From Gammaproteobacteria bacterium (GTDB lineage Bacteria > Pseudomonadota > Gammaproteobacteria > Pseudomonadales > Porticoccaceae): a DNA stretch of 64,000 bases. Made by a program: the position numbers and the translations under genes. How positions within the stretch are numbered: position 1 is the stretch's first letter; each line of letters starts with the position of its first letter. Below are positions 7,393-52,262 of this stretch, piece after piece. A model generated the notes under the pieces. That model had not been told where the DNA came from, did no database searches, and was given only the letters and a program-made list of their open reading frames with translations. The stretch is taken from positions 1 through 64,000 of the forward strand of contig JAGPUW010000002.1 in assembly GCA_018069465.1 (NCBI GenBank), written 5' to 3'.

Positions 7393-7407
7393 TTGAGATT
7401 TATTAGC

Positions 7408-9066: not shown

Positions 9067-9177
9067 GTGCAGTTTAGGGGCTCTATTTAGCGGCGCAGTT
9101 TTCGGCGCTCAGTTTTAGCAGTCCTTTTTCAGTCGTCACTGCGATTGATGCCTGCCCTCAAACAACAGGTGACAGAA

Positions 9178-23369: not shown

Positions 23370-23381
23370 TGCTTATTCCCC

Positions 23382-25367: not shown

Positions 25368-25441
25368 ATTGGTCTCTAATCTTTTAAGTTTTGTATGCTG
25401 TAAGGTTTATGGCTTAAGTAGTGTGTTAAATATGCGCTATT

Positions 25442-26251: not shown

Positions 26252-26256
26252 TGCCG

Positions 26257-29547: not shown

Positions 29548-29593
29548 ATTAAAACGTCCATTATCTATAAACTCTTAAGCTAAACTATCAGGA

Positions 29594-29779
29594 TTAATCA
29601 GCCGCTTGACCAGACCGGACCCAGTCATCAACTTCATCCTTTTTAAACTTCCATAACCTGCCAATTTTGTGGGCTGGCATCCCTTTTTTCTCGATCCATT
29701 TGTAAGCGGTGTCACTGGATATCCCCAAATGCTTACAAATTTCGGACATCGACAACCAACGATCTTCTATTTCGTCCAT
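29594..29779 (-). CDS. Excisionase/MerR-like helix-turn-helix protein
   Basis: 61 residues, one compact DNA-binding domain: LSMSEICKHLGISSDTAYKW is the helix-turn-helix and MPAHKIGRLWKFKKDEVDDW is the wing and C-terminal helix of the HTH_17 (excisionase-like) fold. Such small proteins commonly precede helicase/R-M defence operons. It lies 46 bp upstream of the helicase start and just downstream of the eight 10-bp iterons, so it is the obvious candidate for binding them and controlling the module. No integrase is nearby, so a role as a recombination directionality factor is less likely. Confidence 0.87.
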   Translation of the reverse strand: MDEIEDRWLSMSEICKHLGISSDTAYKWIEKKGMPAHKIGRLWKFKKDEVDDWVRSGQAAD

Positions 29780-29820
29780 CTTTGCCTCATTAATTTTGTT
29801 TCTATAACGATCTACCGGAA

Positions 29821-29900
29821 AGCCAATTTAAGCCAATTTAAGCTAATTTAAGCCAACTCTAGCCGATTTAAGCTGATTTATCAGGTTTTAAGCTATTTAT
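29821..29900. repeat. Eight tandem 10-bp iterons upstream of the HTH gene
   Basis: Eight consecutive units of exactly 10 bp with consensus AGCCAATTTA (variants AGCTAATTTA, AGCCGATTTA, AGCTGATTTA, and more degenerate units 4 and 7). A period of 10 bp places one unit per helical turn on the same DNA face. Position 41 bp upstream of the HTH start suggests a cooperative regulator-binding array. Confidence 0.88.
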
Positions 29901-30025
29901 TCGATGGACTTTCAGTGACTTCAGAATGTTTCACTTGAAAATCTTTACGTTAGATCTGGCATCAAGCGAACATTACTCTCTGGTAGTTGGCTTCTAAGCA
30001 GCTGATTCTCTAGGGGCAGGCGCTC

Positions 30026-30130
30026 AGTTAGGACACCCACCCAAAGCGACAACTAGGTCAGCCAGTTACGAACTATGATGCTAAAGCTTGTCTTCGCTAC
30101 TCCTCCTCGCGCGCATAATTACTGCGCTCA
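30026..30130. repeat. 105-bp direct repeat, copy R2 (right of the R-M module)
   Basis: Same orientation as copy R1 at 19684 with six single-base differences over 105 bp. Its last base is the first base of the next, shorter repeat copy. The pair R1/R2 encloses about 10.2 kb. Confidence 0.92.
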
Positions 30131-30245
30131 GTTAGGACACCCACCTTAAGCGCTAAACGAACTGCCGAGTAATCCTCGGTAGTTGCTGATTCATCTAGCT
30201 CGCCTTCTTTAAAGATGTTTTTAAGATGGAGGCTCACGTTGTCTG
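30130..30245 (-). pseudogene. RhuM-family gene fragment 1 fused to repeat R3
   Basis: The minus strand reads DNVSLHLKNIFKEGELDESA then TTEDYSAV, matching the N-terminal part of the RhuM virulence-protein family (the IFKEGELDE segment). It then runs into RLALKVGVLT, encoded by the AGTTAGGACACCCACCTTAAGCGC repeat, and breaks off. No start codon or remainder of the gene is present. Confidence 0.65.
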
Positions 30246-30251
30246 AAAATT

Positions 30252-30340
30252 AGTTAGGACACCCACCTTAAGCGCTAAACGAACTGCTAAGAAATCCTTA
30301 GTAGTTGCCGCTTCATCTAACTCATTGTCTTTGAATACGC
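30252..30340 (-). pseudogene. RhuM-family gene fragment 2 fused to repeat R4
   Basis: The minus strand reads FKDNELDEAATTKDFLAV and then the same repeat-encoded RLALKVGVLT tail as fragment 1. It is a second, diverged RhuM-like scrap broken at the same position, so the truncation is tied to the repeat and not random. Confidence 0.6.
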
Positions 30341-30342
30341 TC

Positions 30343-30370
30343 AGTTAGGACACCCATCTTAAGCGCTCAT
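30343..30370. repeat. Short repeat copy R5 at the start of the Fic unit
   Basis: AGTTAGGACACCCATCTTAAGCGCTCATTCG. It marks the left edge of a unit (30343-31744) that carries the intact Fic gene and is repeated, in broken form, at 31745-33680. Confidence 0.75.
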
Positions 30371-30419
30371 TCGCGGCAGGCAACGCTGTCGTCGCGCAGT
30401 AGGTTCCAGAGTTTGGCGA

Positions 30420-31601
30420 TTAAACCTTGTGTGTTGTCGTGATATTGCTGTGATTGGCCAGTGCATAGCGGGTGCTGCGGCCGCCACCGGGTAGTTTGGT
30501 CAAGCAGTTTTTTTGTACTAAGTCGGCCAGCTCGCGGGTGGCGGTGGCTTTGCTGACCTTGGCCAGGCCGCGGTATTTACTGGCGTTAATGCCCTGTAAA
30601 AACTCTTCGCCCTGGGTATCTAAAAGCCGGTTCAATACTTTGATCTGCCGTTGGTTTAATACGGTTTGGCTGTGTTGTTGCCAAAAGCGGGTTTTTGTTA
30701 GTACTTGGTCAAACCTTGCCAGGCCCTGGGTGAGTGCGTCGTTGAGCACGGTAAGGAACCAGCTTAGCCAGGGTGTTAGGTCTAAGCTGCCTTTCTGGGT
30801 TTGCTCCAGCATTTCATAGTATTCGCTGCGCCGGGCCATGATGGCTGCACTGTGAGAGTAGTAGCGAATGCTGCTGTGTTCGGCCTGCGCCAGGGCGCGG
30901 TCGGTGAGGGCGCGGGTGACGCGGCCATTGCCATCGTCAAAGGGGTGCAGGGTGACGAGCCACAAGTGAGCGATGCCTGCCCTTAGCAGCACATCCAAGC
31001 CTTTGGGGGCGTGGTTAAACCAGTGAATAAAGCGTTGCAGTTCCGCTTCCAGAGTCTCGCGGGGCGGGGCTTCAAAGTGGACGTTTGGCTGGTCGAGCCG
31101 CCCTGATACGACTTGCATGGCAGCGTCGCCACGCAGTTGGCCGATACGCAGTTCGACAAATCGGGGCGGCTCGGGGAAAAGTGCCGCCTGCCATAAACAA
31201 AGGGTTTGCAGGCTTAGGGATGCCTGGGTTTGTGTTGTGGCCTCGACCAATAGCTTGGCGAGGGCATCGGTTTGGGGTGTGCCTTTTATGTCATTAACTA
31301 TGTAGCCGGCATTATCGAGGCCGAGTTGGTTAATGACGGATGAGCGCACCGAGGCGACGTTGAGTGTCTCGCCTTCTATTTCGCTGGTGCGCAGGGCGTT
31401 TTGCACAAGGGCATCCAGCTGTGCCGCTTGTAGCTCGTGCGGTGGTTCGCCACCTTCGCTATTGGCGACGGCCTCACTTTTTCCTAACAAGCGGCCCTGT
31501 TGCAGACGCACGGCCTCTAATTGCGGCAGCAATGTCTCGGTTTGCCAATGAAAGGCGGGCATATCGCCCTGCTTCCAGTCGTCTCGCTGCCAGATATACA
31601 T
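30420..31601 (-). CDS. Fic family protein (DUF4172-type N-terminus, class II)
   Basis: 393 residues. The catalytic motif is HPFDDGNGRVTR at about residues 219-230, complete for AMPylation-type transfer. The inhibitory motif TSEIEG at 72-77 lies N-terminal, placing it in class II. The C-terminus is a winged-helix segment (KVSKATATRELADLVQK) that could bind DNA. Fic enzymes attach AMP or other nucleotide groups to target hydroxyls. ATG at 31601. Two palindromes upstream suggest autoregulation. The gene occupies the first unit of a tandem duplication; its 5' and 3' ends are found again around the second Fic gene. Confidence 0.93.
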   Translation of the reverse strand: MYIWQRDDWKQGDMPAFHWQTETLLPQLEAVRLQQGRLLGKSEAVANSEGGEPPHELQAAQLDALVQNALRTSEIEGETLNVASVRSSVINQLGLDNAGYIVNDIKGTPQTDALAKLLVEATTQTQASLSLQTLCLWQAALFPEPPRFVELRIGQLRGDAAMQVVSGRLDQPNVHFEAPPRETLEAELQRFIHWFNHAPKGLDVLLRAGIAHLWLVTLHPFDDGNGRVTRALTDRALAQAEHSSIRYYSHSAAIMARRSEYYEMLEQTQKGSLDLTPWLSWFLTVLNDALTQGLARFDQVLTKTRFWQQHSQTVLNQRQIKVLNRLLDTQGEEFLQGINASKYRGLAKVSKATATRELADLVQKNCLTKLPGGGRSTRYALANHSNITTTHKV

Positions 31602-31649
31602 AGTTGCTTAATCTGCGTTGTGGCTTAGCTTGTGATAAGTATTGGTGCT

Positions 31650-31676
31650 GAGCCGAATAGAAAACACATTCGGCTC
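31650..31676. promoter_or_regulatory. Operator-like palindrome 1 upstream of the first Fic gene
   Basis: GAGCCGAAT and ATTCGGCTC form a perfect 9-bp inverted repeat around nine bases, about 50 bp upstream of the Fic start. A related copy occurs near 33614-33640 in the second unit. Confidence 0.55.
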
Positions 31677-31683
31677 ATAATTT

Positions 31684-31711
31684 GAGTCGAATACTAGCGC
31701 TTATTCGGCTC
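31684..31711. promoter_or_regulatory. Operator-like palindrome 2 upstream of the first Fic gene
   Basis: GAGTCGAAT and ATTCGGCTC repeat the arms of palindrome 1 with one mismatch around ten bases. Two tandem sites of the same design suggest cooperative binding, possibly by the winged helix of the Fic protein. Confidence 0.5.
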
Positions 31712-31744
31712 AAGGGCGAGGGGCTTAGCTAGCGTTGTAGTAAT

Positions 31745-31965
31745 TAGTTAGGACACCCATGATAAGCGCCCATTCGTGGTAGGTAGCGCTGTCGTCGCAA
31801 AGCAGTGTTTGGCGATTAATTTTATGTGTTGCAGTGATTGGCCAGTGCATAGCGGGTGCTGCGCCCGCCACCGAATAGTTTCGTCAAACATTTTTTTGTG
31901 CTAAGTCAGCCAGCGCGCGGGTGGCTTTGGCCAGGCTGCTGTGTTCGGCCTGCGCCTACGCGTAA
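31745..31965 (-). pseudogene. Fic C-terminal remnant with repeat copy R6
   Basis: Begins with AGTTAGGACACCCATGATAAGCGCC and continues with a diverged, partly deleted copy of 30343-30560, the 3' end of the first Fic gene (compare AGCGGGTGCTGCGCCCGCCA with AGCGGGTGCTGCGGCCGCCA). It is the left end of a second Fic unit whose middle is gone. Confidence 0.8.
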
Positions 31966-32032
31966 CGTGGGATAAGCGAATGTGCCCTCCACCATTTACT
32001 GTGGCACCCGTTTTAGTCTATGCTGACTTTAA

Positions 32033-32139
32033 CCGGCCAGAAAACCGGCCCTTATCGAGTAAAAATAGCAGTATTGTTTAAAAATAGCCTCTTAATATCA
32101 GCCAATTACAGCTATTTATATCCGGCCATTCAACCGGCC
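32033..32139. promoter_or_regulatory. Paired CCGGCC sites upstream of the second Fic gene
   Basis: CCGGCC occurs at 32033, 32045, 32122 and 32134: two pairs, each with 12-base spacing, upstream of the Fic start at 32197. AAATAGC-type words recur between them. The symmetry suggests a regulator binding the two pairs, perhaps by looping. Confidence 0.45.
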
Positions 32140-32196
32140 ATACCATGTCTTTAATAGCAGCACTGGCGGCTAACAAGAGCTAATCAAAGCGTGCTT

Positions 32197-33420
32197 ATGA
32201 AAAAACAAGCGATCAAAAGCTCAATACTGGATGTAACGCCTTTTATTCCTAGCGATAAAGCCTTAGCGGGCTCTGCCGTGCCCGATTTGGCGATGCAGTT
32301 AAGCCAGTTATCGGCAAAATTATCAGGGCAGTTGGCACTCCCTACGGTGCAAACACTTGAAGCCTATATGCGAGTAATTAACTCCTATTACTCCAACTTG
32401 ATTGAGGGCAATGCCACTCAGCCCCATGAGATAAGAGCCGCACAACGGGGTGATTATTTTACCGATGCCGCCAAGCGTGATTTACAGGAAGAGTCGCTGG
32501 GGCATATGGCGGTGCAGCAATGGTTGCAAAGCCAGTCGCCCACTATTGAGCAGGTGTTTAGCCCGGCGTTTATTCTGGAGGTGCATCGGCAATTTTATAC
32601 CTCTATGCCTGAGCGTTTGTGCTTAATAAAAAATAGCCAGGGTGATGTGGTGGGTAAGGTGGTGCCGGGTGCCTGGCGTGAGCAAGCGGTAGCGGTGGGT
32701 GTGCATATTCCGCCAGAGTCAGAAAGTATTGCGGCATTAATGAAAAGCTTTGCTGAAACCTATAACCCCCAGCGTTTTGTTGGCGACAGAAAGTTAATAG
32801 CGATTATGGCGGCGCACCATCGTTTTGCCTGGCTTCACCCTTTTTTAGATGGCAATGGTCGTGTGGGTCGCTTAATCACCGATGCGGCGTTAAAGGCAGT
32901 GGGTTTAGACAGTTGTGGCGCCTGGTGTTTAAGCCGTGGTTTGGCCAATAAAAATGGCGATTACAAACGGTTTTTGGCAATGGCAGACCTGCCTCGGCAG
33001 GGTGATTACGATGGCCGGGGGCAGTTAAGCGAAAAGGGTCTATTGGCTTTTTGCGAATATATGCTGGCCACCGCGATTGATCAGGTGGGCTATATGAGCA
33101 GCCTGCTGGATTTAAGCCACTTGCGTCAGCGGATGGATGCGTATGTGCAAGCCAGAAATGATCGGCGCGTGAGGGCTTTGGATAAAGACCTTAAACCGGT
33201 TGCTGGCCTGATATTGCATACTGCTTTTATCTACGGTGAGATTAGCCGCGCTCAGGCTTTGGAGTTATGTGGTATGCCCGAGCGTAGCGCCAGGCGTTTG
33301 TTGAGCCAGTTAAAAAATGAAGGCTTATTAAGCGAAACAAGTACTAAATCACCTTTGCGCTGGGAAATACCTGAGCACGCAGAACCTTGGTATTTTCCTG
33401 ATTTGGCACCGCTCATTTAG
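32197..33420 (+). CDS. Fic family protein (class II, second type)
   Basis: 407 residues from ATG 32197 (the track begins two codons earlier at GTG). The catalytic motif HPFLDGNGRVGR lies near residue 214, and the inhibitory SNLIEG near 66, again class II. A C-terminal winged helix (ALELCGMPERSARRLLSQLK) follows. It belongs to a different Fic subgroup from the gene at 30420 and is on the opposite strand, between the two broken ends of a duplicated copy of that gene. This suggests it replaced the interior of the duplicate. Confidence 0.92.
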   Translation: MKKQAIKSSILDVTPFIPSDKALAGSAVPDLAMQLSQLSAKLSGQLALPTVQTLEAYMRVINSYYSNLIEGNATQPHEIRAAQRGDYFTDAAKRDLQEESLGHMAVQQWLQSQSPTIEQVFSPAFILEVHRQFYTSMPERLCLIKNSQGDVVGKVVPGAWREQAVAVGVHIPPESESIAALMKSFAETYNPQRFVGDRKLIAIMAAHHRFAWLHPFLDGNGRVGRLITDAALKAVGLDSCGAWCLSRGLANKNGDYKRFLAMADLPRQGDYDGRGQLSEKGLLAFCEYMLATAIDQVGYMSSLLDLSHLRQRMDAYVQARNDRRVRALDKDLKPVAGLILHTAFIYGEISRAQALELCGMPERSARRLLSQLKNEGLLSETSTKSPLRWEIPEHAEPWYFPDLAPLI

Positions 33421-39872: not shown

Positions 39873-41000
39873 GTGGAAGACATTAGTTTGCAGTCGCGAA
39901 TCGACGTGCTCAGCGAAGAGCAGGTGATGATTCAGGATAGTGCTGTCGCGTTTATCGCCCAGGACGAAGAGCTTAAAAAAGTCCGTGAAAACCGTTTTAG
40001 CCAGCCCGGCTACGATGCACAGACCTGGGCCGAAATGGCTGAAGCCGGTTGGTTGGGTTTTTTGGTGCCGGAAGAATATGACGGCATTGGCCTGACCTTT
40101 TCCGATCTTAGTCTGGTCTTAATCCAGCTCGGCAAGGGGCTGGTACCGGCACCCTTTTCTGCCACCGCCGTACTGGCGGCGCGAACTATTGTTAAAGGTG
40201 ATAACGAATCTTTCAAAAAAGCCCGATTACCGGCGCTGATCAGCGGCGAGTGGAAACCCGCCGTGGCCTGGCAGGAAGCCCGCGCAACGCTGGATGTCAA
40301 CGCTAAAAACGTCACTTGTACCGATGGCAAATTGAACGGCCAAAAACTCTTTGTGCCCGATGCCGGTGGTGCCGATGACTTCATCGTTTCTGCGGCAACA
40401 GCCGAGGGCACAGCCCTGTATCTGGTTGAGAAAGACGCCAGCGGCCTGAGCATTGAATACGCCCAGCGCGTCGATGGTGGCTTTTACGCCACGCTGACAT
40501 TTAACAATGTCGCGGCGGGTGAGCAAGTCGCCAGTGCTGCCGTGGCCGAGCAAGCGTTGGCCAGCGCACTGGACGAGGCACGCGTTGCCGCCAGCGCCGA
40601 GTTGCTGGGGGTGATGACCCGCGCTCTGGAAATCACTGTCGACTATTTGACCCAGCGGGTGCAGTTCGACAAGCCCATCGGTAGCTTCCAGTCTCTGCAA
40701 CACAAGTCTGTCGACCTGTTTGTGCTGTCGGAAATTTCCCGCTCGGTACTGCTACAAACCACGGCGCTATTTGACGGCGATGCCTCCGTTGAGGCGCGCG
40801 CCATTGCCGCCAGCCAGCTGAAAGCGCGCTGTGGCGATGCGGCCCTGCAAATCACTAAAGATGCTATCCAGTTACACGGCGGCATCGGTTATACCGACGA
40901 GTGCAATATCGGCCTCTATCTGAAAAAAGCCATGTACCTCTCCTCCCTGTGGGGCAACCCCTCCGCCCACCGCAGTCGTTATGCGTCTCTTGTGTTGTAA
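39873..41000 (+). CDS. Acyl-CoA dehydrogenase family protein (first of three)
   Basis: 375 residues. Acyl-CoA dehydrogenase fold: WAEMAEAGWLGFLVPEEYDG, the middle beta domain (ALYLVEKDASGLSIEYAQRV), and ITKDAIQLHGGIGYTDECN near the C-terminus with YLKKAMYLSSLWGNP. The flavin-contact block differs from the next two genes and it looks like the smaller partner of a heteromeric dehydrogenase. GTG start with GAGGAG upstream. First of a row of three on the same strand with gaps of 67 and 91 bp. Confidence 0.88.
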   Translation: MEDISLQSRIDVLSEEQVMIQDSAVAFIAQDEELKKVRENRFSQPGYDAQTWAEMAEAGWLGFLVPEEYDGIGLTFSDLSLVLIQLGKGLVPAPFSATAVLAARTIVKGDNESFKKARLPALISGEWKPAVAWQEARATLDVNAKNVTCTDGKLNGQKLFVPDAGGADDFIVSAATAEGTALYLVEKDASGLSIEYAQRVDGGFYATLTFNNVAAGEQVASAAVAEQALASALDEARVAASAELLGVMTRALEITVDYLTQRVQFDKPIGSFQSLQHKSVDLFVLSEISRSVLLQTTALFDGDASVEARAIAASQLKARCGDAALQITKDAIQLHGGIGYTDECNIGLYLKKAMYLSSLWGNPSAHRSRYASLVL

Positions 41001-41067: not shown

Positions 41068-42216
41068 ATGACTGATTACAACGCAATGGCGGATGATGAC
41101 TTCCGCAAAATGCTCTGCGACTGGTTGGTTGCGAATTACCCCGACGAGCTGCGCTTTCCGTCAGCGCGCATGCACTGGGATCAGTGCGGCGACTGGTATA
41201 TGACCCTGGCCAAAAAAGGCTGGTTGGCGCCGGGCTGGCCTGCTGAACACGGCGGCATGGGGCTGGATGCCAATAAACTGCTGATTTTGATGGAAGAGTT
41301 CGAAGGTTACGGCGTCGGCCGCACACCAGATCAGGGCATGACCATGATCGGGCCGCTGTTAATTCAGTACGGCAGCGAAGAGCAGCGCAAACACTACCTG
41401 CCGAAAATATTGAATGGCGAAAATATTTGGTGTCAGGGTTATTCCGAGCCGGGTGCGGGTTCTGATTTGGCCAGCCTGCGTACCGCAGCGGTGCGCGACG
41501 GCGATGACTATGTGGTCAATGGCCACAAAATCTGGACCACTCTGGCGATGGACGCCAATATGATCTTCACCCTGGTGCGCACCAATAAAGAGGGCAAGAA
41601 GCAGCAGGGCATTACCTTTTTGCTGATTCCTCTCGATAGTCCCGGCATCACCGTGCGGGGCATCGACAACCTCGGCATGCACGATGAATTTGCCGAAGTG
41701 TTTTTTGACGATGTGCGCGTGCCCGTTGCCAACGTCGTGGGTAAAGAGAATGACGGTTGGACTATCGCCAAGGCCCTACTCGGCCACGAGCGTATTTTTA
41801 TCGGCAGCCCAAAGATGGCGTCGCTGGCAATGAATCGCCTCCAGGCGCTGGCTGAAAGTGCCGACATGTTCGCCGATCCCCTCTTTGTTGAGCGCTACAT
41901 CGCACTGAAACTGGATATCGAAGATCTGGCGGCGGCCTATCGACGCTTTGTCGAGGTGCTCAAGCGCGGCGGTAAAATTGGTGCGGAAGTGTCGATGCTA
42001 AAAATTTGGAATACCGAAACCCAGCAGCGCATCACCGATTTGATGCTCGATGTGGCTGGCGAAAACTGCGGTGTCTCCGATGCCATCCCCGCCGGTGATA
42101 CGGCTGTCAGTGCGCCGGGTGAATTTATTGGCGCCCGCCCGACCACTATTTATGGCGGCAGTAACGAGATTCAGCGCAATATTCTCGCCAAAGCCGTGCT
42201 CAAGTTGCCCAGCTAG
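41068..42216 (+). CDS. Acyl-CoA dehydrogenase (second of three)
   Basis: 382 residues. Conserved YSEPGAGSDLASLRT (substrate/FAD contact), VVNGHKIWTTLAM, and the C-terminal TIYGGSNEIQRNILAKAVLKLP. The position of the E376-type catalytic base (YEG) holds glycine, so the base must come from elsewhere, as in FadE/ChsE heteromers. FAD-dependent alpha-beta oxidation of an acyl-CoA. The gene is close in sequence to the next one, probably from duplication. TTGAGGAGAGACA upstream is an excellent ribosome binding site. Confidence 0.9.
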   Translation: MTDYNAMADDDFRKMLCDWLVANYPDELRFPSARMHWDQCGDWYMTLAKKGWLAPGWPAEHGGMGLDANKLLILMEEFEGYGVGRTPDQGMTMIGPLLIQYGSEEQRKHYLPKILNGENIWCQGYSEPGAGSDLASLRTAAVRDGDDYVVNGHKIWTTLAMDANMIFTLVRTNKEGKKQQGITFLLIPLDSPGITVRGIDNLGMHDEFAEVFFDDVRVPVANVVGKENDGWTIAKALLGHERIFIGSPKMASLAMNRLQALAESADMFADPLFVERYIALKLDIEDLAAAYRRFVEVLKRGGKIGAEVSMLKIWNTETQQRITDLMLDVAGENCGVSDAIPAGDTAVSAPGEFIGARPTTIYGGSNEIQRNILAKAVLKLPS

Positions 42217-42307
42217 TTTTTCAGCGCTGCAATTGGTTTTTCTAGTTTGCTAACGATAGCGGGGCGCTTAGCTCGCCCCGAGATTTAAAAATAAAAGGTA
42301 GATCACA

Positions 42308-43441
42308 ATGGATGATCAGGCGTTTCGCCTTCAGGCCCGCGAGTGGCTAGAAGCTAACTTCCCCCAGGAGATGCGCTTTCCACCGCGCCGACTGGATTTC
42401 AATCAGGCCATGGACTGGCATAAAAAGCTCAACGAAAAGGGCTGGGTCGCCCCCGGTTGGCCCGAGCAGTACGGCGGCATGGGTCTCAGCCCCTATCAGC
42501 AGATTATTTTTGCCGAAGAGCTCGATAAAGTCGGCGCTTTTATTATCCCCAGCTTTGGTGTGACCATGCTGGGGCCGCTGTTGTTAGGCTACGGTACTGA
42601 TGAGCAGCGGGCAGAATATTTGCCAAAAATCCTTTCCGGTGAGCACATCTGGTGCCAGGGTTACTCCGAGCCGGGCGCGGGTTCAGATTTGGCCAGCCTG
42701 CGAACGTCCGCTGTGCCCGATGGCGATGACTACATTGTCAATGGCCAGAAAACCTGGACCACTATGGCCCAGCAGGCCAACTGGGTCTTCCTCTTAGTGC
42801 GCACCGATAAAGACGCCAAGAAGCAAAAGGGCATTAGCTTTTTACTGGTGCCCATGGATACACCGGGCATCACCGTGCGTGAGATCGACAATATTGGCGG
42901 TTACTCCGAGTTTGCCGAGGTCTTCTTCGACGATGTGCGAGTGCCGCGCAGCAATATGGTTGGCGAAGTGAATCAGGGCTGGACCATGGCCAAAGCTCTT
43001 TTAGGCGCGGAGCGAATATTGCTTGGCAGCCCGAAATTGGCGAAATTCCCTATGCAACGGCTGAAAGCGCTGGCCACTGACTTCGGTCTGTTCGAAGACG
43101 CGGTCTTCAAAGAACGCTTCACCAAATTGCACATGGATGTTGAAGATTCAGTGGCGGTCTATGTGCGCATGCTTGAAGTGTTGCGACGCGGCGAAGTGCT
43201 GGGGCCGGAAGTGTCTATCTTGAAGCTGGCGGTGACGGAAATGTTTCAGCAGGTAGCGGATTTAATTCTTGATGCTGCCGCTGAATTTGGTGGCACCGAA
43301 GCCGTTATACCACTGTCGGATGGCTCCTCTTATAAGCCAGCGAACACCTACTACCTATCGCGACCGTCCACTATTTATGGCGGCAGCAGCCAGGTGCAGC
43401 GCAATATTCTTGCTAAAGCGGTGTTGAAGCTGCCGGGCTAA
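42308..43441 (+). CDS. Acyl-CoA dehydrogenase (third of three)
   Basis: 377 residues, a paralogue of the preceding protein: YSEPGAGSDLASLRT, IVNGQKTWTTMAQ, FAEVFFDDVRVP, TIYGGSSQVQRNILAKAVL. The same glycine replaces the YEG glutamate. With the two upstream genes it may form mixed subunit complexes acting on bulky or branched acyl-CoAs such as steroid or terpene side chains; this is inference from the architecture of known ChsE-type enzymes. Confidence 0.9.
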   Translation: MDDQAFRLQAREWLEANFPQEMRFPPRRLDFNQAMDWHKKLNEKGWVAPGWPEQYGGMGLSPYQQIIFAEELDKVGAFIIPSFGVTMLGPLLLGYGTDEQRAEYLPKILSGEHIWCQGYSEPGAGSDLASLRTSAVPDGDDYIVNGQKTWTTMAQQANWVFLLVRTDKDAKKQKGISFLLVPMDTPGITVREIDNIGGYSEFAEVFFDDVRVPRSNMVGEVNQGWTMAKALLGAERILLGSPKLAKFPMQRLKALATDFGLFEDAVFKERFTKLHMDVEDSVAVYVRMLEVLRRGEVLGPEVSILKLAVTEMFQQVADLILDAAAEFGGTEAVIPLSDGSSYKPANTYYLSRPSTIYGGSSQVQRNILAKAVLKLPG

Positions 43442-44098: not shown

Positions 44099-44194
44099 AG
44101 TTCTTTCCTTTCTTTGGGTTCACTCAATGGTTTCAAGTAAGATGAGGGCTTCGTCTTACTTGGCTTGGAAAGAATACTAGTCTCCTTGCCCCTA

Positions 44195-44210
44195 TGTGTA
44201 AATTCACACA
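44195..44210. promoter_or_regulatory. Palindrome in the LysR/small-gene divergent promoter
   Basis: TGTGTAAATTCACACA is palindromic over 7 of 8 base pairs. It lies between the divergent small membrane protein gene and the LysR-type regulator start, where LysR regulators usually bind. Confidence 0.5.
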
Positions 44211-44241
44211 AAGTGCAAACAACTTGTGCAATAATGCACGG

Positions 44242-45117
44242 ATGAATGATTGGGATGATTTGCGCTATTTCCTCGCCGTGGCAAGAAATAGCAGTGTTTC
44301 TGGGGCGGCTGTGGAGCTTGGTGTTAACCACTCCACCGTTTCTCGCCGCATAAATGCCTACGAAAAAAAACATGATGTGCGTTTATTCGAGCGCCTGCCT
44401 CAGGGTTATGCCATGACCCAGGCGGCGGAGAATATTTATCGCTACGCGCTGGAGATTGAAGAGCGCACGCAGATTGTTGAGCGAGAGTTGTTTGGCCGCG
44501 ATACGCGCCTGCAGGGCAGGCTGTGTATTACCTCCTACCACAGCACGTTCAATGAGCTGGTGATTCCTGCGCTGCACAGTTTTTCTGCAGCATACCCGGA
44601 AATCGACCTCGAGCTTTCTGTCACTGCCGATGTGCGCGATCTATCGGCGCGGGAGGCGGATATCGCCATTCGCGGCACACCGCAGCCACCGGATCACCTG
44701 ATTGGCAAAAAAGTGGCCGACTTTGGCAGTGCTATCTATACCGCCGAAAGTTATCAGGCCCGCCAGCCTCGGCGCCCCGAGGTGATTCTCTGGCGCGACG
44801 AGATGCAGCTCCCCGAGTGGGCGGTCGCGCATTTTCCCGATGCGCGGGTGGTGCTGCGGGTGGATGATGTCACCGCGATGCGCACCGCTGTGCAGGCGGG
44901 CCTCGGCATGGCGAGACTGCCCAGCTGGGTGGCTGACGTCTGCCCTGACTTATTCCGCTTAAAGCTTGATATCCCGTCAATGGGCTGGGGCTTGTGGGTT
45001 TTGATTCACGCCGATTTGCGCTCCACGGCACGGGTTCGTGTGTGCCGCGATTTTTTGATCGAAACACTGGAGAAAAAACGTGACTTGATTGAGGGCCGCT
45101 GTTCAAACTACCTGTGA
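44242..45117 (+). CDS. LysR-family transcriptional regulator
   Basis: 291 residues from ATG 44242 (MNDWDDLRYFLAVARN); the track starts 16 codons earlier. The winged helix is SVSGAAVELGVNHSTVSRRI and the effector domain follows (LCITSYHSTFNELVIPALHSF to WVADVCPDLF). The opening and size match the LysR subgroup that controls single divergent operons. Likely regulates the small gene at 43949 or the GFA gene downstream. Confidence 0.9.
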   Translation: MNDWDDLRYFLAVARNSSVSGAAVELGVNHSTVSRRINAYEKKHDVRLFERLPQGYAMTQAAENIYRYALEIEERTQIVERELFGRDTRLQGRLCITSYHSTFNELVIPALHSFSAAYPEIDLELSVTADVRDLSAREADIAIRGTPQPPDHLIGKKVADFGSAIYTAESYQARQPRRPEVILWRDEMQLPEWAVAHFPDARVVLRVDDVTAMRTAVQAGLGMARLPSWVADVCPDLFRLKLDIPSMGWGLWVLIHADLRSTARVRVCRDFLIETLEKKRDLIEGRCSNYL

Positions 45118-45182
45118 GCGGGGTAAAGTTCCTGGCTCAAACATTCGCTGCAGAAAACGCTAATAAAAAAGGTCTCAGTTCT

Positions 45183-45653
45183 ATGGAAACTCCCCTTACC
45201 GGCGGCTGCTTTTGCGGCGCCATTCGCTATCGCATTACGGCACCGCCTTTCGGTCAGGCGAACTGTCACTGTCGAGCCTGCCAGCGCGCCACCGGTGGTG
45301 CCTTTGCCGGTGTTTTACTGGTGCCCACCGAGGCCCTTGAGGTGGCGGGTGAGTACCGTGAATTCACCGAGCTCGGCGATAGTGGCAACAAGGTGAGCCG
45401 GGGTTTTTGCCCGCAGTGTGGTAGTACTCTGTTTGCCCGTACCACGCGCATAGCGTCGATGCGCCCGGTGTACGCGGCGACTCTGGATAAGCCCGAATTG
45501 TTTACGCCCACCCTCGATGCCTGGGTGGATTTTGCCCAGCCCTGGGTGACAATGGATGAAAGTTTACCCAAATATCGGCGCGACTTGCCGGCTGAATGCG
45601 CGGGTCTGCCCGCACCGAAAAATCGCCGGCCGCGCCCTGTTGTAGGTAGTTAA
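45183..45653 (+). CDS. GFA/CENP-V family zinc protein
   Basis: 156 residues from ATG 45183 (METPLTGGCFCGAIRYR). Cysteine pattern of the glutathione-dependent formaldehyde-activating (Gfa-like) fold: GGCFCGAIRYR, CHCRACQRATGGAF, and SRGFCPQCGSTLFAR. Zinc is bound structurally and in the active site; most family members act on or bind glutathione adducts, others are unknown. Immediately downstream of the LysR gene on the same strand. AAGGTCTCAGTTCT precedes the ATG. Confidence 0.9.
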   Translation: METPLTGGCFCGAIRYRITAPPFGQANCHCRACQRATGGAFAGVLLVPTEALEVAGEYREFTELGDSGNKVSRGFCPQCGSTLFARTTRIASMRPVYAATLDKPELFTPTLDAWVDFAQPWVTMDESLPKYRRDLPAECAGLPAPKNRRPRPVVGS

Positions 45654-45805: not shown

Positions 45806-46429
45806 ATGGATCTGGATTTAATCGAGCAGGGCGGCCCTGTTGTTATTGTTTTAATTGGCCTGTCTATTGTTGGCTTGGCATTGGTTTTTTTCAAATTATT
45901 TCACTATCGCCATTACTCAATGGCCAAAATTCGCAGCATAGAAGGCGCTATTGATCTGTGGATTGGGGGTGACAAACAGCAGGCACTCGATGGGCTAGAT
46001 AAAATCCCCGGCCCCTACGCCGCCATGCTCGGACAGGGTATTCGCTGGCTGGATAAGGGTGACAAAGAGCAAGCCTCAATTCGCGAAGAACTTAATCGTC
46101 AGGGCCAGCAAGTCGTTTCCCAGGTCAACGGCATGAACGGCTTTGTCGAGCAAATTGCCTACTTGTCACCGATGCTCGGTTTGCTCGGCACCGTGCTGGG
46201 CATGATTGATGTGTTTCGCGGCCTCGCCAATCAGGGGGGTGGCGGTGACACAGGTGCTCTCGCCGGGGGCATTTGGGAGGCGCTAATGACCACGGCGGTG
46301 GGTTTGACCGTGGCTATTCCCTTCGCACTGATTTACTACATGCTCGACAGCCACGCGACAACGATTCGCCGCAGTATGGAGGATCAGTTGACCCGCCTGT
46401 TCACGGTCAAGCTGTACGGCAAGTCTTAA
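45806..46429 (+). CDS. ExbB/TolQ-family proton channel protein
   Basis: 207 residues, MotA/TolQ/ExbB type. The first helix is GGPVVIVLIGLSIVGLALVF, then a cytoplasmic stretch, and the last two helices in QIAYLSPMLGLLGTVLGMID and ALMTTAVGLTVAIPFALIYY, with the conserved threonine and proline that line the proton pathway. Works with ExbD-type proteins to turn the proton gradient into motion. First gene of the five-gene operon. A weak promoter-like TTGACG/TAAGAT pair is upstream. Confidence 0.93.
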   Translation: MDLDLIEQGGPVVIVLIGLSIVGLALVFFKLFHYRHYSMAKIRSIEGAIDLWIGGDKQQALDGLDKIPGPYAAMLGQGIRWLDKGDKEQASIREELNRQGQQVVSQVNGMNGFVEQIAYLSPMLGLLGTVLGMIDVFRGLANQGGGGDTGALAGGIWEALMTTAVGLTVAIPFALIYYMLDSHATTIRRSMEDQLTRLFTVKLYGKS

Positions 46430-46455
46430 GCTAGCCCCCCACAGGCGACTCCGAC

Positions 46456-46860
46456 ATGCACCTGCAATCTCACCATCGCAAAGCACTGCGCCGCATCAGT
46501 CTTACGCCACTGGCTGATCTGGTGTTTATCTTGCTCGTTTTCTTTATTCTCGAAACCAGCTTTGTTGAGTTCCGGGAAATTGCTTTTAAAGTGCCCGATG
46601 AGCCGACCACGGCGAGTCATGCGGCGGGCGAGAGCCTGAGCATACAGGTCTTCCCCGGTGGCAAATTGTGGATAGAGGGTGAGTCGCTGGCACTGACAGA
46701 CCTCACTCCCTGGCTTCTGCGTAAGCAATTGGGCGAAGAGACCGCGGTGGTGCTCAAAGCGCAGGACCGTGTGGCCCTGCAAACGCTGGTCGAAACCATG
46801 GACCTGCTGCGGGCTCAGTCATTGTCGCGGGTACAGATACACGCGCTGGGAGATAACTAG
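46456..46860 (+). CDS. ExbD/TolR-family protein (first copy)
   Basis: 134 residues. One N-terminal helix with the motor aspartate, LTPLADLVFILLVFFILETS, followed by a periplasmic domain ending in LVETMDLLRAQSLSRVQIHA. ExbD proteins form the proton path with ExbB and contact TonB-like partners. The start ATG at 46456 is 26 bp after exbB. Two non-identical ExbD proteins in one operon are unusual and may form a hetero-dimer. Confidence 0.92.
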   Translation: MHLQSHHRKALRRISLTPLADLVFILLVFFILETSFVEFREIAFKVPDEPTTASHAAGESLSIQVFPGGKLWIEGESLALTDLTPWLLRKQLGEETAVVLKAQDRVALQTLVETMDLLRAQSLSRVQIHALGDN

Positions 46861-46862
46861 CG

Positions 46863-47276
46863 ATGTTTAACCTCGGTGGTGAGCACGAGCAGCGCAAGCA
46901 GCTCGATGGCAATATGCTGCCGGTCATTAATATGACCTTTTTACTGCTGCTGTTTTTTATTGTGGTCGGCAGTTTTAGCGAGACCTATAACAAGGACATC
47001 GCGCCGCCCCAGTCGAGCAGCGAGTCGCTGACGGCGGATGCCGAAGAGCTATCCCTCAGTGGTGATGGCAAATTGTGGTGGCGGGGAGAGAGCACAACAC
47101 TGGCGAACTGGGCCAGTCAGTTGCAGGCAGAGGGCCAGGCAGTGCCCTCGCGAGTCAGCTTGCGCGCCGATGGCCGCACACCCGCAGCAGTCATTATCCC
47201 CCTGATCGACGAGCTTAAATTGCTCAAAGTTAGCCGGGTGGCACTGGTCACTGTGAACGACCCCGGTATGCTCTAG
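46863..47276 (+). CDS. ExbD/TolR-family protein (second copy)
   Basis: 137 residues. N-terminal LDGNMLPVINMTFLLLLFFI carries a helix in which the motor aspartate of the first copy is replaced by asparagine (VINMTF versus the usual D-x-x-F/L). Then a periplasmic domain that ends VPSRVSLRADGRTPAAVIIP, LLKVSRVALVTVNDPGML. Two bases separate it from the first copy, and its stop overlaps the GTG start of the VWA gene. The pair could have divided labour: one conducts protons, the other is structural. Confidence 0.88.
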   Translation: MFNLGGEHEQRKQLDGNMLPVINMTFLLLLFFIVVGSFSETYNKDIAPPQSSSESLTADAEELSLSGDGKLWWRGESTTLANWASQLQAEGQAVPSRVSLRADGRTPAAVIIPLIDELKLLKVSRVALVTVNDPGML

Positions 47277-48406
47277 TGGCAATATTGGGGTCGCCATTGG
47301 GACAGCTGTCTAGCCGCCTGAAAACCCTTGGCCTGTGGTTGGCACTACTACTCATTTCCCTCGGCATCCACCTGGTGTTGACCTGGCAGGCCTCCCTGCA
47401 CATTCTGACCATTGAGCCGCTGACGGCCAATAGTGCTGAGGAAGTTGAGATCTTACTCGACCTGGCCGAGCCGCAAGCCGAGAAAGAAGAACTGGTTTTT
47501 GAAGAGGCCATAGAGTTTGAACCACCGCCGGTACTGGTGCCGACCGCAGCGCTGGCGCCACCGCCACCGGAGGTCAACCTGGCCATGGAGGCCGCCGCCG
47601 GGGGTGAAAGTGCCGCCGGTTTTTCTGCCCCTCTACTGTCGAATATCGCCACCGCCGGGGAGGGTCTAGCCGGATTTGGTAGCGGTGTCGGCACCGGCCT
47701 CGGCCAGTCGGCGAATCAGTTTGCCGCCTATGTTCAGGGCTTGCGCGAGACCGGCCTCGACGTGGTGTTTGTGGTCGACTCGACCGGCTCCATGGACTGG
47801 GTGATCGATGAGGTGCAGCGACGCATTGTCGACATCGTCGACGTGGTGCGCCCTCTAGTGCCAGTTTCACGCTTTGGCGTGGTTGCCTATCGCGATGTCG
47901 GTAGTCCGTCTTACGTCACTCAGCATCAGGTATTAACGTTCAGCCTCAATAAACTGAGCCGCTTTTTAAATAATTTGAGTGCCGAGGGCGGTGGCGATTT
48001 TCAGGAGGCAGTGTATGAGGGCATGAAGGTCGCCACTGAAAAAAGCGGTTGGCGGCTGGGGGCTAAAAAAGTCATTATTTTGATTGGCGATGCGCCACCC
48101 CATCAGGATTCTTTTCAGCGCTTACTGGCGGTCAACCGCGAGTTTGCCAGTGGTCACGGGCAAATTTCGACTCTCGATGTCAGCCACCACGCCAACCCCG
48201 CAGTGCTCGAAGCCAAGCTCGGTCGACCGGTGAACCGGGCTTTCTACACGGACACGGCGATGCTCGACTACCAGCTAATGGCGGAGGCTGGTGGTGGAAC
48301 CGCCTCTACCCTCGATGGCGATGTGCACATCACCCGCCAGCTGGTGTCACTGATTATGGGCGGCCAATTTGCCCGTGAGATGGCGCTCTTGCTGGAGGGT
48401 TTTTAA
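47276..48406 (+). CDS. TonB-like N-terminus fused to a von Willebrand A domain
   Basis: 376 residues. N-terminal helix LWLALLLISLGIHLVLTWQA, then an acidic and proline-rich linker (EIEPPPVLVP-like, with EVEILLDLAEPQAEKEE), then a glycine-rich spacer and a VWA domain. The MIDAS motif is DSTGSM at about residues 168-173, with the further loop YRDVG and an IGDAPPH segment. Start GTG overlaps the preceding stop; the stop overlaps the next ATG. The organisation copies TonB/TolA (helix plus linker) but with an adhesion-type metal domain in place of the TonB C-terminal fold. Substrate unknown. Confidence 0.82.
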   Translation: MAILGSPLGQLSSRLKTLGLWLALLLISLGIHLVLTWQASLHILTIEPLTANSAEEVEILLDLAEPQAEKEELVFEEAIEFEPPPVLVPTAALAPPPPEVNLAMEAAAGGESAAGFSAPLLSNIATAGEGLAGFGSGVGTGLGQSANQFAAYVQGLRETGLDVVFVVDSTGSMDWVIDEVQRRIVDIVDVVRPLVPVSRFGVVAYRDVGSPSYVTQHQVLTFSLNKLSRFLNNLSAEGGGDFQEAVYEGMKVATEKSGWRLGAKKVIILIGDAPPHQDSFQRLLAVNREFASGHGQISTLDVSHHANPAVLEAKLGRPVNRAFYTDTAMLDYQLMAEAGGGTASTLDGDVHITRQLVSLIMGGQFAREMALLLEGF

Positions 48407-50781
48407 TGGCCCTGTTGCAGAGAATGTATCGCACAGCTCAGTGCTGTTTACTGTTGATGGCACTGGGCGGGGCGGCCAACACGCTGGCAACGCCGCCGGT
48501 GGCGCTGGCGAAACTACTAGAACAGTCAACTCAGGTGACGACACCCCGGGCGAGCAAAGCACTGCTGGTGCAAATTCAGCAAAGTTTGGCAGTGGATCTG
48601 GAGAGTTTGACGACGCAGGATTTTGTCAGCGCCGCCGATGCCTATGGCCATCTGGTGGCAGGTGCCCGCGAAGAAAGTGGGGGCAAGGCCGATTTTGAAC
48701 ACTTGATCAGTCGCGGCGCGAGTTTTTACCAGCGCTGTCGGGCCAAGATCCGCAATCTCGAAGAGGCCACTGGCGACCGGGAAGCGGCACTGGAGACCCT
48801 TTATCGCTCCGACATTTGGCACGATATTAACTACGCGCTGTCGGCGTTTAATTACTGGCAGGCCTGGGGCAAGCTGGGCCTGGCTCACAACTATCGGGGC
48901 GAGCAGGAGCAGGTCAAGTGGCTGAACGAAGCCGAGCACGGTTTTCAGACCTCATCCGTACGCATTCTCTATCCGGGCATCGTCTACGGTAGCTGGCTGG
49001 GCATGGCCTATGTCGCCCAGGCTCGGGGTGATGAGGGCCTGGCCGAGCAGCGTTTTCGCCGTTTGGTGATGGCTCTGGCGGGGGATGAAGACAACCCGGT
49101 ACGCACCGCAGCCGAAACAGAACTCACCTTGTTGGCGATTCGCAAAGGCGAGCTGCCCACACTGCCACCGATGGCCGATGAGCCACTGACACCGAGCACG
49201 GCCAGAGTCTATCAAGAGCAGGCTTTTATGCTCTTACAGCGCCAGCGTGATACCCAGACTGGTGCGCTGGAAGCGGCGGTGCGCTTGAAGCGCGTGATCG
49301 AAATGGGCTTTCTCAACGACGCATTATTGAATCGTATTATTGCCTACCGCGATGAAATAGCCGGTCGCGATATTGGTCTCTTGAGTCTTTATGTCGACAC
49401 CGAATACGCTTTCGCCTGGCACCAATACGACACCACGGTGCTGAAATACCGGGCTTTTGTCGAACAGGGTGGTCTCGATTTGCCGGTTAACCTCCGCGTA
49501 CTGCAATACCACTACGCGGTCGCCCTGCTGGAAATACAGCTGGCGCGCGAGGCGCTCAAGGTGGTGGAAAACTTACAGCATGAAACCGACCTGCCCCAGC
49601 CCGTGGCCAAAGCCCTGCCCAAGTTGAAATTTCTGATCGCCATGGATCTCTACCAGCGGCGTGACAACAGCGCCAATCGCAAGCGCGTGTTGGCCGAGGC
49701 CGAATACTTTTTGCGGCTCAGCCCCAGTGACGGGGATGTGGGTAGCGCCCACCTGCTGATCGGACAATTGAGTGCCGACCCCGACAAGGCGAGCCGTCAC
49801 ATGAAGGCTGCCAGCAAGGACAAAAAGCTCAAGGGCAGTGTTGCCATGAGCCAAATGCAGCGCGCTATTGGCGACTTTAACCGGGCGGTCATTAAAGTGG
49901 ATGCCAGAGCCCAGCAAAAGCAGGCTAAAAAGGTCCTGGCAGCGCTGGCAGAACTACGTCGAAACCAACGTAAAAAGCCCTGGTTTCGTGCGGTGTCGCT
50001 GCAAATGCGTGCGGTGCTGGCCGAAGATCTCGAGCGGGTGCTGCGCGACATTAATGAGATGTACGCAGACGCGGAAGCTTATCCGGACAAGGAGGAATAC
50101 CGGCTGGATCAGCGCGTGCGCCGGGTTTTAATGTGGGCGGAGCTGCGCGCCCGGGATAGCTATCAGCAGGGGCAAACCCTGGCTGTTTTTATTGGCGAGC
50201 TAGCGCACGCGCCCAGTGATGCCATGGTGCAGAAAGAGGTCTACCAATTTTTGTTGGCAAAAGAACAACAGGGAGGCTACGCTCAAATAGTCGCTTTAGC
50301 AGAGGCTTTTTACCCAGCTTTGCAGGGCCAGCCACAGGATCAACGGCAGTTGCGGCTACTGCAAATTCGCGCGGCGAATGCATTGGGGGAGGGACAGCGC
50401 GCCTATCAAATTGCCGAGCAGCTGATTGCCGACTTTGCCGATTCTGGCGATGCCTGGGTCGCTTTTGCGCAAAGCGCTGAGCAAATGGAGCGCTGGTTTG
50501 AGGCGGAGCGGGCCTGGGCGAAGATCACTGTAGGGCAGCCCCAGGGTTCCCCCCGCTGGCGTGAGGCAATGTTTAAACGCAGTGCCGCGCTCACGGCGCA
50601 AAGCGCTGCCGAGACCGAAGGTGACAGTGGGCAAAAAGAGGACGCTACCGATCCCGCGCAGTGCTCACTACTGGCCAGATTATCTGTCTACCGACGTTTG
50701 ATGGCTGCAGCGCAACAGCGAGAGTTGGACAAAGGTATTAAACAGCAAAGTTGTACAAGCATAAAAAATGCTCGAAAGTAA
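48406..50781 (+). CDS. Large exported TPR-like protein of the Exb-VWA operon
   Basis: 791 residues. Signal peptide near the N-terminus (CCLLLMALGGAANTLATPP). The rest is helical with many repeated pairs, such as FNYWQAWGKLGLAHNYRGEQ, LGMAYVAQARGDEGLAEQRF, LQYHYAVALLEIQLAREALK and AWVAFAQSAEQMERWFEAER, consistent with tetratricopeptide-like scaffolding. ATG overlaps the stop of the VWA gene. As the last gene it may be the partner that receives force or cargo from the Exb/VWA complex. No enzyme motif seen. Confidence 0.7.
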   Translation: MALLQRMYRTAQCCLLLMALGGAANTLATPPVALAKLLEQSTQVTTPRASKALLVQIQQSLAVDLESLTTQDFVSAADAYGHLVAGAREESGGKADFEHLISRGASFYQRCRAKIRNLEEATGDREAALETLYRSDIWHDINYALSAFNYWQAWGKLGLAHNYRGEQEQVKWLNEAEHGFQTSSVRILYPGIVYGSWLGMAYVAQARGDEGLAEQRFRRLVMALAGDEDNPVRTAAETELTLLAIRKGELPTLPPMADEPLTPSTARVYQEQAFMLLQRQRDTQTGALEAAVRLKRVIEMGFLNDALLNRIIAYRDEIAGRDIGLLSLYVDTEYAFAWHQYDTTVLKYRAFVEQGGLDLPVNLRVLQYHYAVALLEIQLAREALKVVENLQHETDLPQPVAKALPKLKFLIAMDLYQRRDNSANRKRVLAEAEYFLRLSPSDGDVGSAHLLIGQLSADPDKASRHMKAASKDKKLKGSVAMSQMQRAIGDFNRAVIKVDARAQQKQAKKVLAALAELRRNQRKKPWFRAVSLQMRAVLAEDLERVLRDINEMYADAEAYPDKEEYRLDQRVRRVLMWAELRARDSYQQGQTLAVFIGELAHAPSDAMVQKEVYQFLLAKEQQGGYAQIVALAEAFYPALQGQPQDQRQLRLLQIRAANALGEGQRAYQIAEQLIADFADSGDAWVAFAQSAEQMERWFEAERAWAKITVGQPQGSPRWREAMFKRSAALTAQSAAETEGDSGQKEDATDPAQCSLLARLSVYRRLMAAAQQRELDKGIKQQSCTSIKNARK

Positions 50782-50885: not shown

Positions 50886-52262
50886 ATGAGAATTCGCAAA
50901 TATGATTTCAACTACGGGCGCCGCCACTTTATGGGCCAGCTCAGTAAAGGTGTGCTGGCAACCGGGGTACTGTCGCCGCTGTGGAAAGCGATCGCCGACA
51001 CCGGTGATATCGCCGGTGTCTACCCCGACGAGCTGATGTCGATTGAAAGTTATACCAAGGGAAAAATCAGTACCGGGGATATGATTAACGCCGACAATGT
51101 TGAGCATGTCAAAGATCTGCTCGATCCTATTCGCTACACCCAGGTGTCGCAGATGGGTCGGCAAATGCGCATGATCGACACCACGACTGACATTATGAAA
51201 CTCAGCGCCTGGGAATATAACGAGGCCACACTGCGCAATTACGGCAAGGCAATGTTTGATGCCAACGGCAATGTGGTGACGAAAGAGGGCAAGCCCTGGA
51301 TAGGCGGCAATCCCTTTCCAGATCCGAAATCGGCCTTGGAAGTGTTTGCCGGCATCACCCTCAGCTGGGGCCGCCACGACGCCTCGTTTTACGCTATTAA
51401 GGAACAGGACGTTGGCCCCGATGGCGATGTTGAATATGAGTATGAGTTGGGCTGGGCTGAGATGTCACCTGTGGCCAGAACCGTACTCGAGCCCAAACCC
51501 TATTGGCCGGGCCACGAAGACAAGCTGCGTTATCAATCGGTATTTTTTGTCAGCCCCAACGATATTGCCGGCACCTCGTTTTTGAATGTCTGGCATTACG
51601 ACCAGCGCCGCTTTCCCGATTTGAGTGGCTATTTACCGGCGTTTAAGCGGGTGCGACGCTTTCCGACCAATCAGCGTTTTGAGCCAATGATTCCCGGTTC
51701 AACCCTTTATCTCTCCGATGCATGGACGGCGGGTGATCCCTTTCTGACCTGGGGCAACTACAAGGTGGTGGGCCGCGGCCCCACTTTGGCGGCTATTTCA
51801 CGCAGCTGGAATTCACAACACGAAAACTGGGAGGGCACTACTCACGGTGGCCCCAAGGGTAATACTTTCTGGGATATGGATGTCGAGCTAGTGCCCGAGG
51901 CCATCGTCGTTGAAGCCGAGCCGGTGAAATTCCCCCGCGCACCCATTAGTAAAAAGCGCGTCTGGTTTGATGCCCGTACCTTGCTGCCACTGGCGATGGT
52001 TTCCTACGATCGCAGGGGCGAAATGTTTCGCTCCTTCGACGGTGCTGCATCGCTTTACACCGATGGCGAAAATACCGTTTACGATGGCAAGCATCCCTAT
52101 GCCTCCTGGACCCGGGTGCACGCCCACAATATCCAGGTCAACCGCATGGCCCGACTGGCTCAGGTTAAAGAAATTTCTGGCGGCTATAAAACCAGTGTTA
52201 ATGAAGATAACCTCTACGATAAGTTTTTAACTCAGTCGGCGATTAGGCGCCTGGGTCGATAA
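50886..52262 (+). CDS. DUF1329 family protein with a Tat-like N-terminus
   Basis: 458 residues. The start MRIRKYDFNYGRRHFMGQLS with two adjacent arginines and a hydrophobic run (GVLATGVLSPLW) suggests Tat export. The body matches DUF1329: QMGRQMRMIDTTTDIMKLS, VFAGITLSWGRHDASFYA, KRVRRFPTNQRFEPMIPGS, GTTHGGPKGNTFWDMDVELV, ARTLLPLAMVSYDRRGEM. It is distinct from the paralogue at 9178. AAAGGAGACGAG precedes the ATG. It lies 105 bp after the TPR gene and may be an independent unit. Confidence 0.83.
   Translation: MRIRKYDFNYGRRHFMGQLSKGVLATGVLSPLWKAIADTGDIAGVYPDELMSIESYTKGKISTGDMINADNVEHVKDLLDPIRYTQVSQMGRQMRMIDTTTDIMKLSAWEYNEATLRNYGKAMFDANGNVVTKEGKPWIGGNPFPDPKSALEVFAGITLSWGRHDASFYAIKEQDVGPDGDVEYEYELGWAEMSPVARTVLEPKPYWPGHEDKLRYQSVFFVSPNDIAGTSFLNVWHYDQRRFPDLSGYLPAFKRVRRFPTNQRFEPMIPGSTLYLSDAWTAGDPFLTWGNYKVVGRGPTLAAISRSWNSQHENWEGTTHGGPKGNTFWDMDVELVPEAIVVEAEPVKFPRAPISKKRVWFDARTLLPLAMVSYDRRGEMFRSFDGAASLYTDGENTVYDGKHPYASWTRVHAHNIQVNRMARLAQVKEISGGYKTSVNEDNLYDKFLTQSAIRRLGR

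Follow-up and report, generated by a model that had tools for sequence, protein, structure and literature searches.

A probable VWA force-transducer cassette with two unlike ExbD proteins and its linkage to DUF1329 genes in Gammaproteobacteria

What does a proton motor of the ExbB-ExbD type drive when the protein encoded beside it has the layout of TonB and ends in a VWA domain? The question is raised by a run of genes in the window, the 64,000-nucleotide stretch of DNA analysed here. The original prediction read five of them as a complex linking the proton gradient to a periplasmic binding domain, and knew of no characterised system of this design. The latter statement no longer stands: a class of vWA force transducers was described in 2025, without a function (PMC12204202).

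Gene content and distribution of the cassette

Annotation located all five ORFs (ExbB, ExbD, ExbD, VWA and TPR-like) at 45806-50781, as predicted, and Pfam families matched four of them (Table 1). The genes had been described as joined by one- to two-base overlaps; this was true of two of the four junctions (ExbD2-VWA and VWA-TPR, 1 bp each), the other two being gapped by 26 bp (ExbB-ExbD1) and 2 bp (ExbD1-ExbD2). Nor is 50781 the end of the unit: a DUF1329 gene starts 104 bp past the TPR gene on the same strand and belongs to the same unit as the five-gene cassette. Promoter and terminator scans gave signals near the shuffled background and were set aside. The ExbB protein scored under the equivalog cut-offs for both tolQ and exbB, and its Thr129 and Thr163 were invariant in 13 aligned sequences.

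Table 1. Features of the cassette and its surroundings (positions in the window).
Feature	Position	Strand	Evidence
ExbB/TolQ-like proton-channel subunit, 207 aa	45806..46429	+	PF01618 6.7e-28 (MotA_ExbB)
ExbD1, rotor subunit with transmembrane Asp21, motif LTPLADLVF	46456..46860	+	PF02472 1.7e-18
ExbD2, rotor subunit, Asn23 for Asp, motif MLPVINMTF	46863..47276	+	PF02472 9.7e-18
VWA force-transducer protein, 376 aa, GTG start	47276..48406	+	PF25106 (VWA_4) 3.2e-12, PF00092 (VWA) 4.4e-09
TPR-type solenoid protein, exported, 791 aa, N-terminal signal peptide	48406..50781	+	AF2 fold; TPR 0.061
DUF1329, LolA-like periplasmic carrier, twin-arginine signal YGRRHFM	50886..52262	+	PF07044 3e-57, PF17131 5.9e-09
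Acyl-CoA dehydrogenase paralogs, two, upstream context	41068..43441	+	Neighbourhood comparison; kept in genus, one also in second genus
Acyl-CoA dehydrogenase ORF beside the two paralogs	39873-41000		Pfam
LysR regulator and GFA-family protein, upstream context	44194..45653	+	Pfam; kept in part of family (neighbourhood comparison)

The order ExbB-ExbD-ExbD-VWA was found in 18 Gammaproteobacteria genomes, which answers the concern, voiced with the original prediction, that the genes might not be conserved together elsewhere. Because this order recurs, and is rearranged in Desulfobacterota and other Pseudomonadales, the grouping is not a product of chance. Cassettes recovered from a scan of named genomes and a class-wide sample of 369 genomes were sorted into two types. 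Type A, the type of the window, has the order ExbB-ExbD-ExbD-VWA-TPR, with the TPR gene directly 3' of VWA, and was found in Porticoccaceae- or Cellvibrionales-labelled MAGs, Haliea and members of two other families. Type B (VWA-ExbB-ExbD-ExbD-TPR) was found in Desulfobacterota and other Pseudomonadales; the type B cassettes L055, L056, L057, L064 and L066 (L numbers denote the loci compared) encode a MORN_2 repeat protein after TPR. The two types were split in the VWA tree by a branch with 100/100 support, the ancestral type not being given by the tree alone. The VWA gene is patchily distributed around the window genome: any match was detected in 18 of 58 relatives, several of these being weak, and cassette-type VWA proteins scoring above 300 bits were present in 6/369 genomes of the class-wide sample, window genome included.

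In two type A loci, VWA and TPR are kept and ExbB and ExbD are missing between DUF1302 and VWA (L031:10451-10684; L180:10859-11493). Both genomes retain other ExbBs, so a housekeeping motor may serve the VWA arm; alternatively, the arm may be non-functional there.

The VWA transducer, the ExbD pair and the TPR protein

The AF2 model of the VWA protein consists of an N-terminal helix at residues 7-44 (pLDDT mostly 84-96), a VWA fold at 160-345 and C-terminal helices; most of 46-146 is an acid- and proline-rich linker predicted to be disordered (pLDDT <50 at 46-80 and 84-146). The anchor helix contains Ser28 and His32, which have the Ser-His spacing of the TonB/TolA SHLS motif. All motor-linked VWA relatives examined have this SxxxH in their anchor helices, whichever the gene order and at identities of 84% down to 27%. 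VWA matches without motor genes (L065, L068-L119) served only as outgroup or control. Among 12 VWA matches outside motor cassettes scoring above 110 bits, SxxxH was absent from the first 110 residues in 10 and found only in a hydrophilic stretch in the other 2. Pfam analysis of the VWA protein returned VWA families only, and no TonB/TolA C-terminal domain. The idea of a proton-driven transducer that resembles TonB and has a VWA domain at its end is supported, and conservation of both the SxxxH of the anchor helix and the synteny with ExbB/ExbD strengthens it. The assignment of this protein as a force transducer is well supported.

The leucine and the last serine of SHLS are not kept, which counts against our reading of the locus; Ala39 and Ile43 occupy what we take, from the TonB/TolA spacing, to be their places. 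According to PMC12204202, the full motif is found in "many" vWA force transducers and is thus no strict requirement, and AF3 models have the anchor helix docked where TonB and TolA dock, via a conserved histidine. The same text describes a second family, in which a VWA protein would itself be the rotor; this was considered for the window protein and dropped because its helix carries SxxxH without an Asp and because ExbDs are present.

The head had been announced as a MIDAS VWA domain with the motif DSTGSM, and hence as a metal-dependent binding domain in the periplasm. Asp168 was correctly identified, and Asp168, Thr170, Ser172 and Asp272 are invariant among the VWA relatives. The site is not canonical, however. 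A perfect MIDAS has DxSxS with Thr and Asp ligands, and here Gly240 stands where the metal-binding Thr is normally found, with Asp241 next to it on the C-terminal side. With one canonical ligand missing, metal binding is uncertain and the binding-domain proposal is weaker than originally claimed. The closest PDB fold to the model was BatB (3ibs, E 2e-09), other near folds being integrins and TEM8; a PDB search with the VWA protein sequence gave no match.

"The ExbD aspartate" had been treated as one shared feature, which is correct for ExbD1 (Asp21) and incorrect for ExbD2 (Asn23). In the 18 type A genomes having both ExbDs, the proton-carrying Asp of ExbD1 is always kept, and ExbD2 has an Asn (17/18) or a Ser (1/18) at the proton-binding place. 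Type B ExbDs have Asp in both copies in 11 of 12 genomes; the remaining one has Asn for Asp in its first ExbD only (L060:3942-4409), the opposite ExbD from type A. Background ExbD loci sampled from relatives had the Asp in 30/30 cases. Three cassette ExbDs that were missed by the pattern, and seven background ones, were read by eye. These residues point to an asymmetric type A motor in which only ExbD1 bears the proton-binding Asp and the two ExbDs would form a heterodimeric rotor. The D22N substitution of MotB is treated as a mimic of protonation, and 10 ions per turn are counted for rotors with two acids (PMC9389320). By the same arithmetic, a rotor with one Asp would pass at most 5 protons per turn, if both ExbDs form one heterodimer. 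Such a motor would be a natural experiment on the need for an acid on each of the two rotor helices in 5:2 rotary motors, and the comparison of ≤5 with 10 protons would test 5:2 stepping.

An ExbD1 homodimer could also be pictured as an ordinary two-Asp rotor, leaving the Asn-bearing ExbD2 as a separate regulatory or structural subunit. The strong divergence of ExbD2 from ExbD1 (24% identity in the window) suits this arrangement, which we hold to be quite possible, with prospects a little under even. It sits less well with the adjacency of the two ExbDs, neither of which is lost in any of the 18 type A genomes that have motor genes, or with L060, where an Asn in the other ExbD suits an asymmetric pair.

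The fifth gene had been assigned to an exported TPR-like protein. Its AF2 model, an all-helical solenoid (mean pLDDT 88.7) with an N-terminal signal-like helix, agrees with this assignment; the Pfam TPR match of the sequence is weak. Foldseek analysis of the model returned generic TPR solenoids only, with low TM-scores. One of these matches, a periplasmic scaffold from the flagellar motor of Campylobacter, was too weak to use.

Linkage to DUF1329 and DUF1302 genes

Counting a single locus for each of 20 type A genomes, which are related and not independent events, a DUF1329 gene adjoins the cassette in 19; L046 is the exception. This linkage spans at least 4 families while other neighbours change. 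In 8 type A genomes, the gene immediately 5' of ExbB encodes DUF1302, an outer-membrane barrel; where a cluster among these 8 has no motor genes, DUF1302 directly precedes VWA. The order in L182 is MMPL, YCF48, DUF1302, ExbB, ExbD, ExbD, VWA, TPR, AMP-binding ligase, CobW and DUF1329. MMPL and YCF48 are also clustered in L180 and L053, and MMPL in L179, so that the full AmeABCD-like hydrophobe-transporter family set is found in three type A genomes (L182, L180 and L053). No DUF1302 or MMPL gene lies beside the window cassette; of this set, only DUF1329 adjoins it. At 7393-10545, the window contains another DUF1302/DUF1329 pair, highly divergent, with a GGDEF protein encoded after it.

The sequence of the DUF1329 protein matched the LolA-type PDB entries 9tp6 and 3bk5. 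In the DUF1329 tree, the cassette-linked proteins of type A fall into a single subfamily. It also holds several paralogs that neighbour DUF1302 genes in other parts of the window genome, where 15 DUF1329 and 13 DUF1302 matches were counted. A twin-arginine signal (SRRHF[LM]-like) is conserved in this subfamily; the other DUF1329 proteins examined lack it, canonical ones having Sec-like signals. Where context is visible, most type B cassettes lack DUF1329. It was found next to cassette genes in L059 and in L191, whose contig ends upstream of ExbB and whose VWA is on another contig (L061). With 17-19 DUF1329 copies per genome, both adjacencies could be due to chance. As context only, the acyl-CoA dehydrogenases near the window cassette and the AMP-binding ligase of L182 hint at hydrophobic acids as cargo. 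A literature search returned, at the threshold used, no paper naming DUF1329 or DUF1302 together with ExbB/TolQ.

Possible roles and relation to known systems

The analysis shows which genes are present, their conserved order, the SxxxH of the helix, a predicted fold, the lost Asp and linkage with DUF1329, DUF1302, MMPL and YCF48, and from these we infer the following arrangement. The five genes and DUF1329 would encode a proton-driven envelope machine, with ExbB and the ExbD pair as its inner-membrane proton motor. The VWA protein would dock on the outside of ExbB by its single anchor helix (Ser28/His32), like TonB and TolA, and receive force there; its disordered linker of about 100 residues would span the periplasm and its head would grip a periplasmic or outer-membrane partner, the TPR solenoid acting as a periplasmic scaffold or adaptor. 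The machine would most likely spend its work on moving a hydrophobic compound, acyl or terpenoid-like, or on gating its passage, via a route made of DUF1329, as LolA-like carrier, and the DUF1302 barrel, the same partners as in AmeABCD-type transporters. The transport role is suggested by gene linkage. To this whole reading, in which an ExbBD motor of asymmetric build moves a VWA arm in the service of a DUF1302/DUF1329 hydrophobe route, we give about an even chance. A sharper form, an unrecognised energiser of hydrophobe transport in which a one-Asp ExbB-ExbD1-ExbD2 rotor pulls the VWA arm to open or load a DUF1302/DUF1329 lipid route, is rather unlikely. Against a transport role, linkage is not interaction, and DUF1329 is so abundant that single type B adjacencies could be fortuitous. 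Moreover, L046 lacks DUF1329 next door, the window cassette itself has no adjoining DUF1302 or MMPL, and L031 and L180 have no ExbB/ExbD in the cluster, where a dedicated motor is either dispensable or replaced by another ExbBD.

The same genes could build a general envelope machine, in which the task of the VWA arm is to hold or shift a partner in the outer membrane or peptidoglycan, for envelope stability, surface adhesion or gliding, and the DUF1329 linkage is incidental. The class is present in several phyla, mostly without adjoining DUF1329, and most type B cassettes with context have the MORN_2 protein after TPR instead; VWA folds are also often adhesive, and the nearest PDB folds were BatB, integrins and TEM8. 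A surface or gliding-type role is likewise the guess made in PMC12204202, where gliding is suggested and no phenotype is known. We regard this role as rather unlikely; it leaves unexplained why DUF1329, and often DUF1302, MMPL or YCF48, stay with type A while other neighbours change. The DUF1329/DUF1302 linkage would also suit a VWA/TPR module that is an assembly or quality-control device, using the motor to insert or position the DUF1302 barrel or to deliver DUF1329 cargo and not to power transport. DUF1329 resembles lipoprotein-sorting proteins, and TPR scaffolds are common in assembly machines; a single cassette faces many DUF1302 and DUF1329 copies in the same genome, however, and we think a device of this kind doubtful. 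The homology of ExbB with MotA, together with a restriction-like island elsewhere in the window (20160-33420: ResIII/endonuclease, N6 methylase, DUF4391, SNF2-type helicase and two Fic proteins), might recall a Zorya-like anti-phage system. PADLOC found no defence match in the window cassette (E 0.012 or worse, ExbB alone) and nothing matching ZorB, ZorC or ZorD, and the linkage is to transport genes, making a defence function extremely improbable.

The transport reading takes the steady company of DUF1329, joined in relatives by DUF1302, MMPL and YCF48, as the basis of a first testable role, the energising of hydrophobe transport across the envelope. For a class described in 2025 without a function (PMC12204202), this linkage is the first concrete hint of one.

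Similarly to TonB-ExbB-ExbD and TolA-TolQ-TolR, the cassette combines an inner-membrane motor with a single-helix transducer bearing SxxxH and a disordered periplasmic linker; it differs from both by its VWA head, its two unlike ExbDs, one without the Asp, and the attached TPR protein. AmeABCD of Castellaniella defragrans is made of DUF1302, DUF1329, a COG4447 stability/assembly-factor protein and an HAE3 RND protein; it is a monoterpene efflux system, whose deletion lowers monoterpene tolerance (PMC6394551). Relatives of the cassette lie intermixed with genes of these types (DUF1302, DUF1329, YCF48-type and HAE3/MMPL RND). Unlike them, AmeABCD as described there has no ExbBD-VWA-TPR module, and the window cassette adjoins DUF1329 only. 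The TPH-vWA proteins paired with TolQ, the second family of PMC12204202, also have a TM helix and a VWA domain beside a TolQ-like gene, but stand in for ExbD and have the Asp within their own helix, whereas the window has ExbDs and a VWA helix with SxxxH and no Asp. A locus resembling that family, L034:8690-11524, encodes a MotA/TolQ-like protein followed by two TM-VWA proteins.

The nearest relatives are the vWA force transducers themselves, defined from structure prediction by an SHLS helix, a linker, a vWA domain and synteny with TolQ, two TolRs and TPR (Williams-Jones et al. 2025, PMC12204202). Judged by its SxxxH, its predicted linker of about 100 residues, its modelled vWA domain and its synteny, the window locus is a member of this class. 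It shares the SHLS-type helix (Ser and His), the disordered proline-rich linker, the vWA C-terminus and the TolQ/two TolR/TPR synteny; it differs in its order, ExbB-ExbD-ExbD-VWA-TPR-DUF1329, and in keeping only the Ser and His of SHLS. The available part of that paper reports no function, ExbD Asp loss or DUF1329/DUF1302 linkage for its transducers. Compared with it, the present analysis adds a type A subclass marked by DUF1329/DUF1302 linkage, loss of the Asp in ExbD2 and a Tat-type DUF1329.
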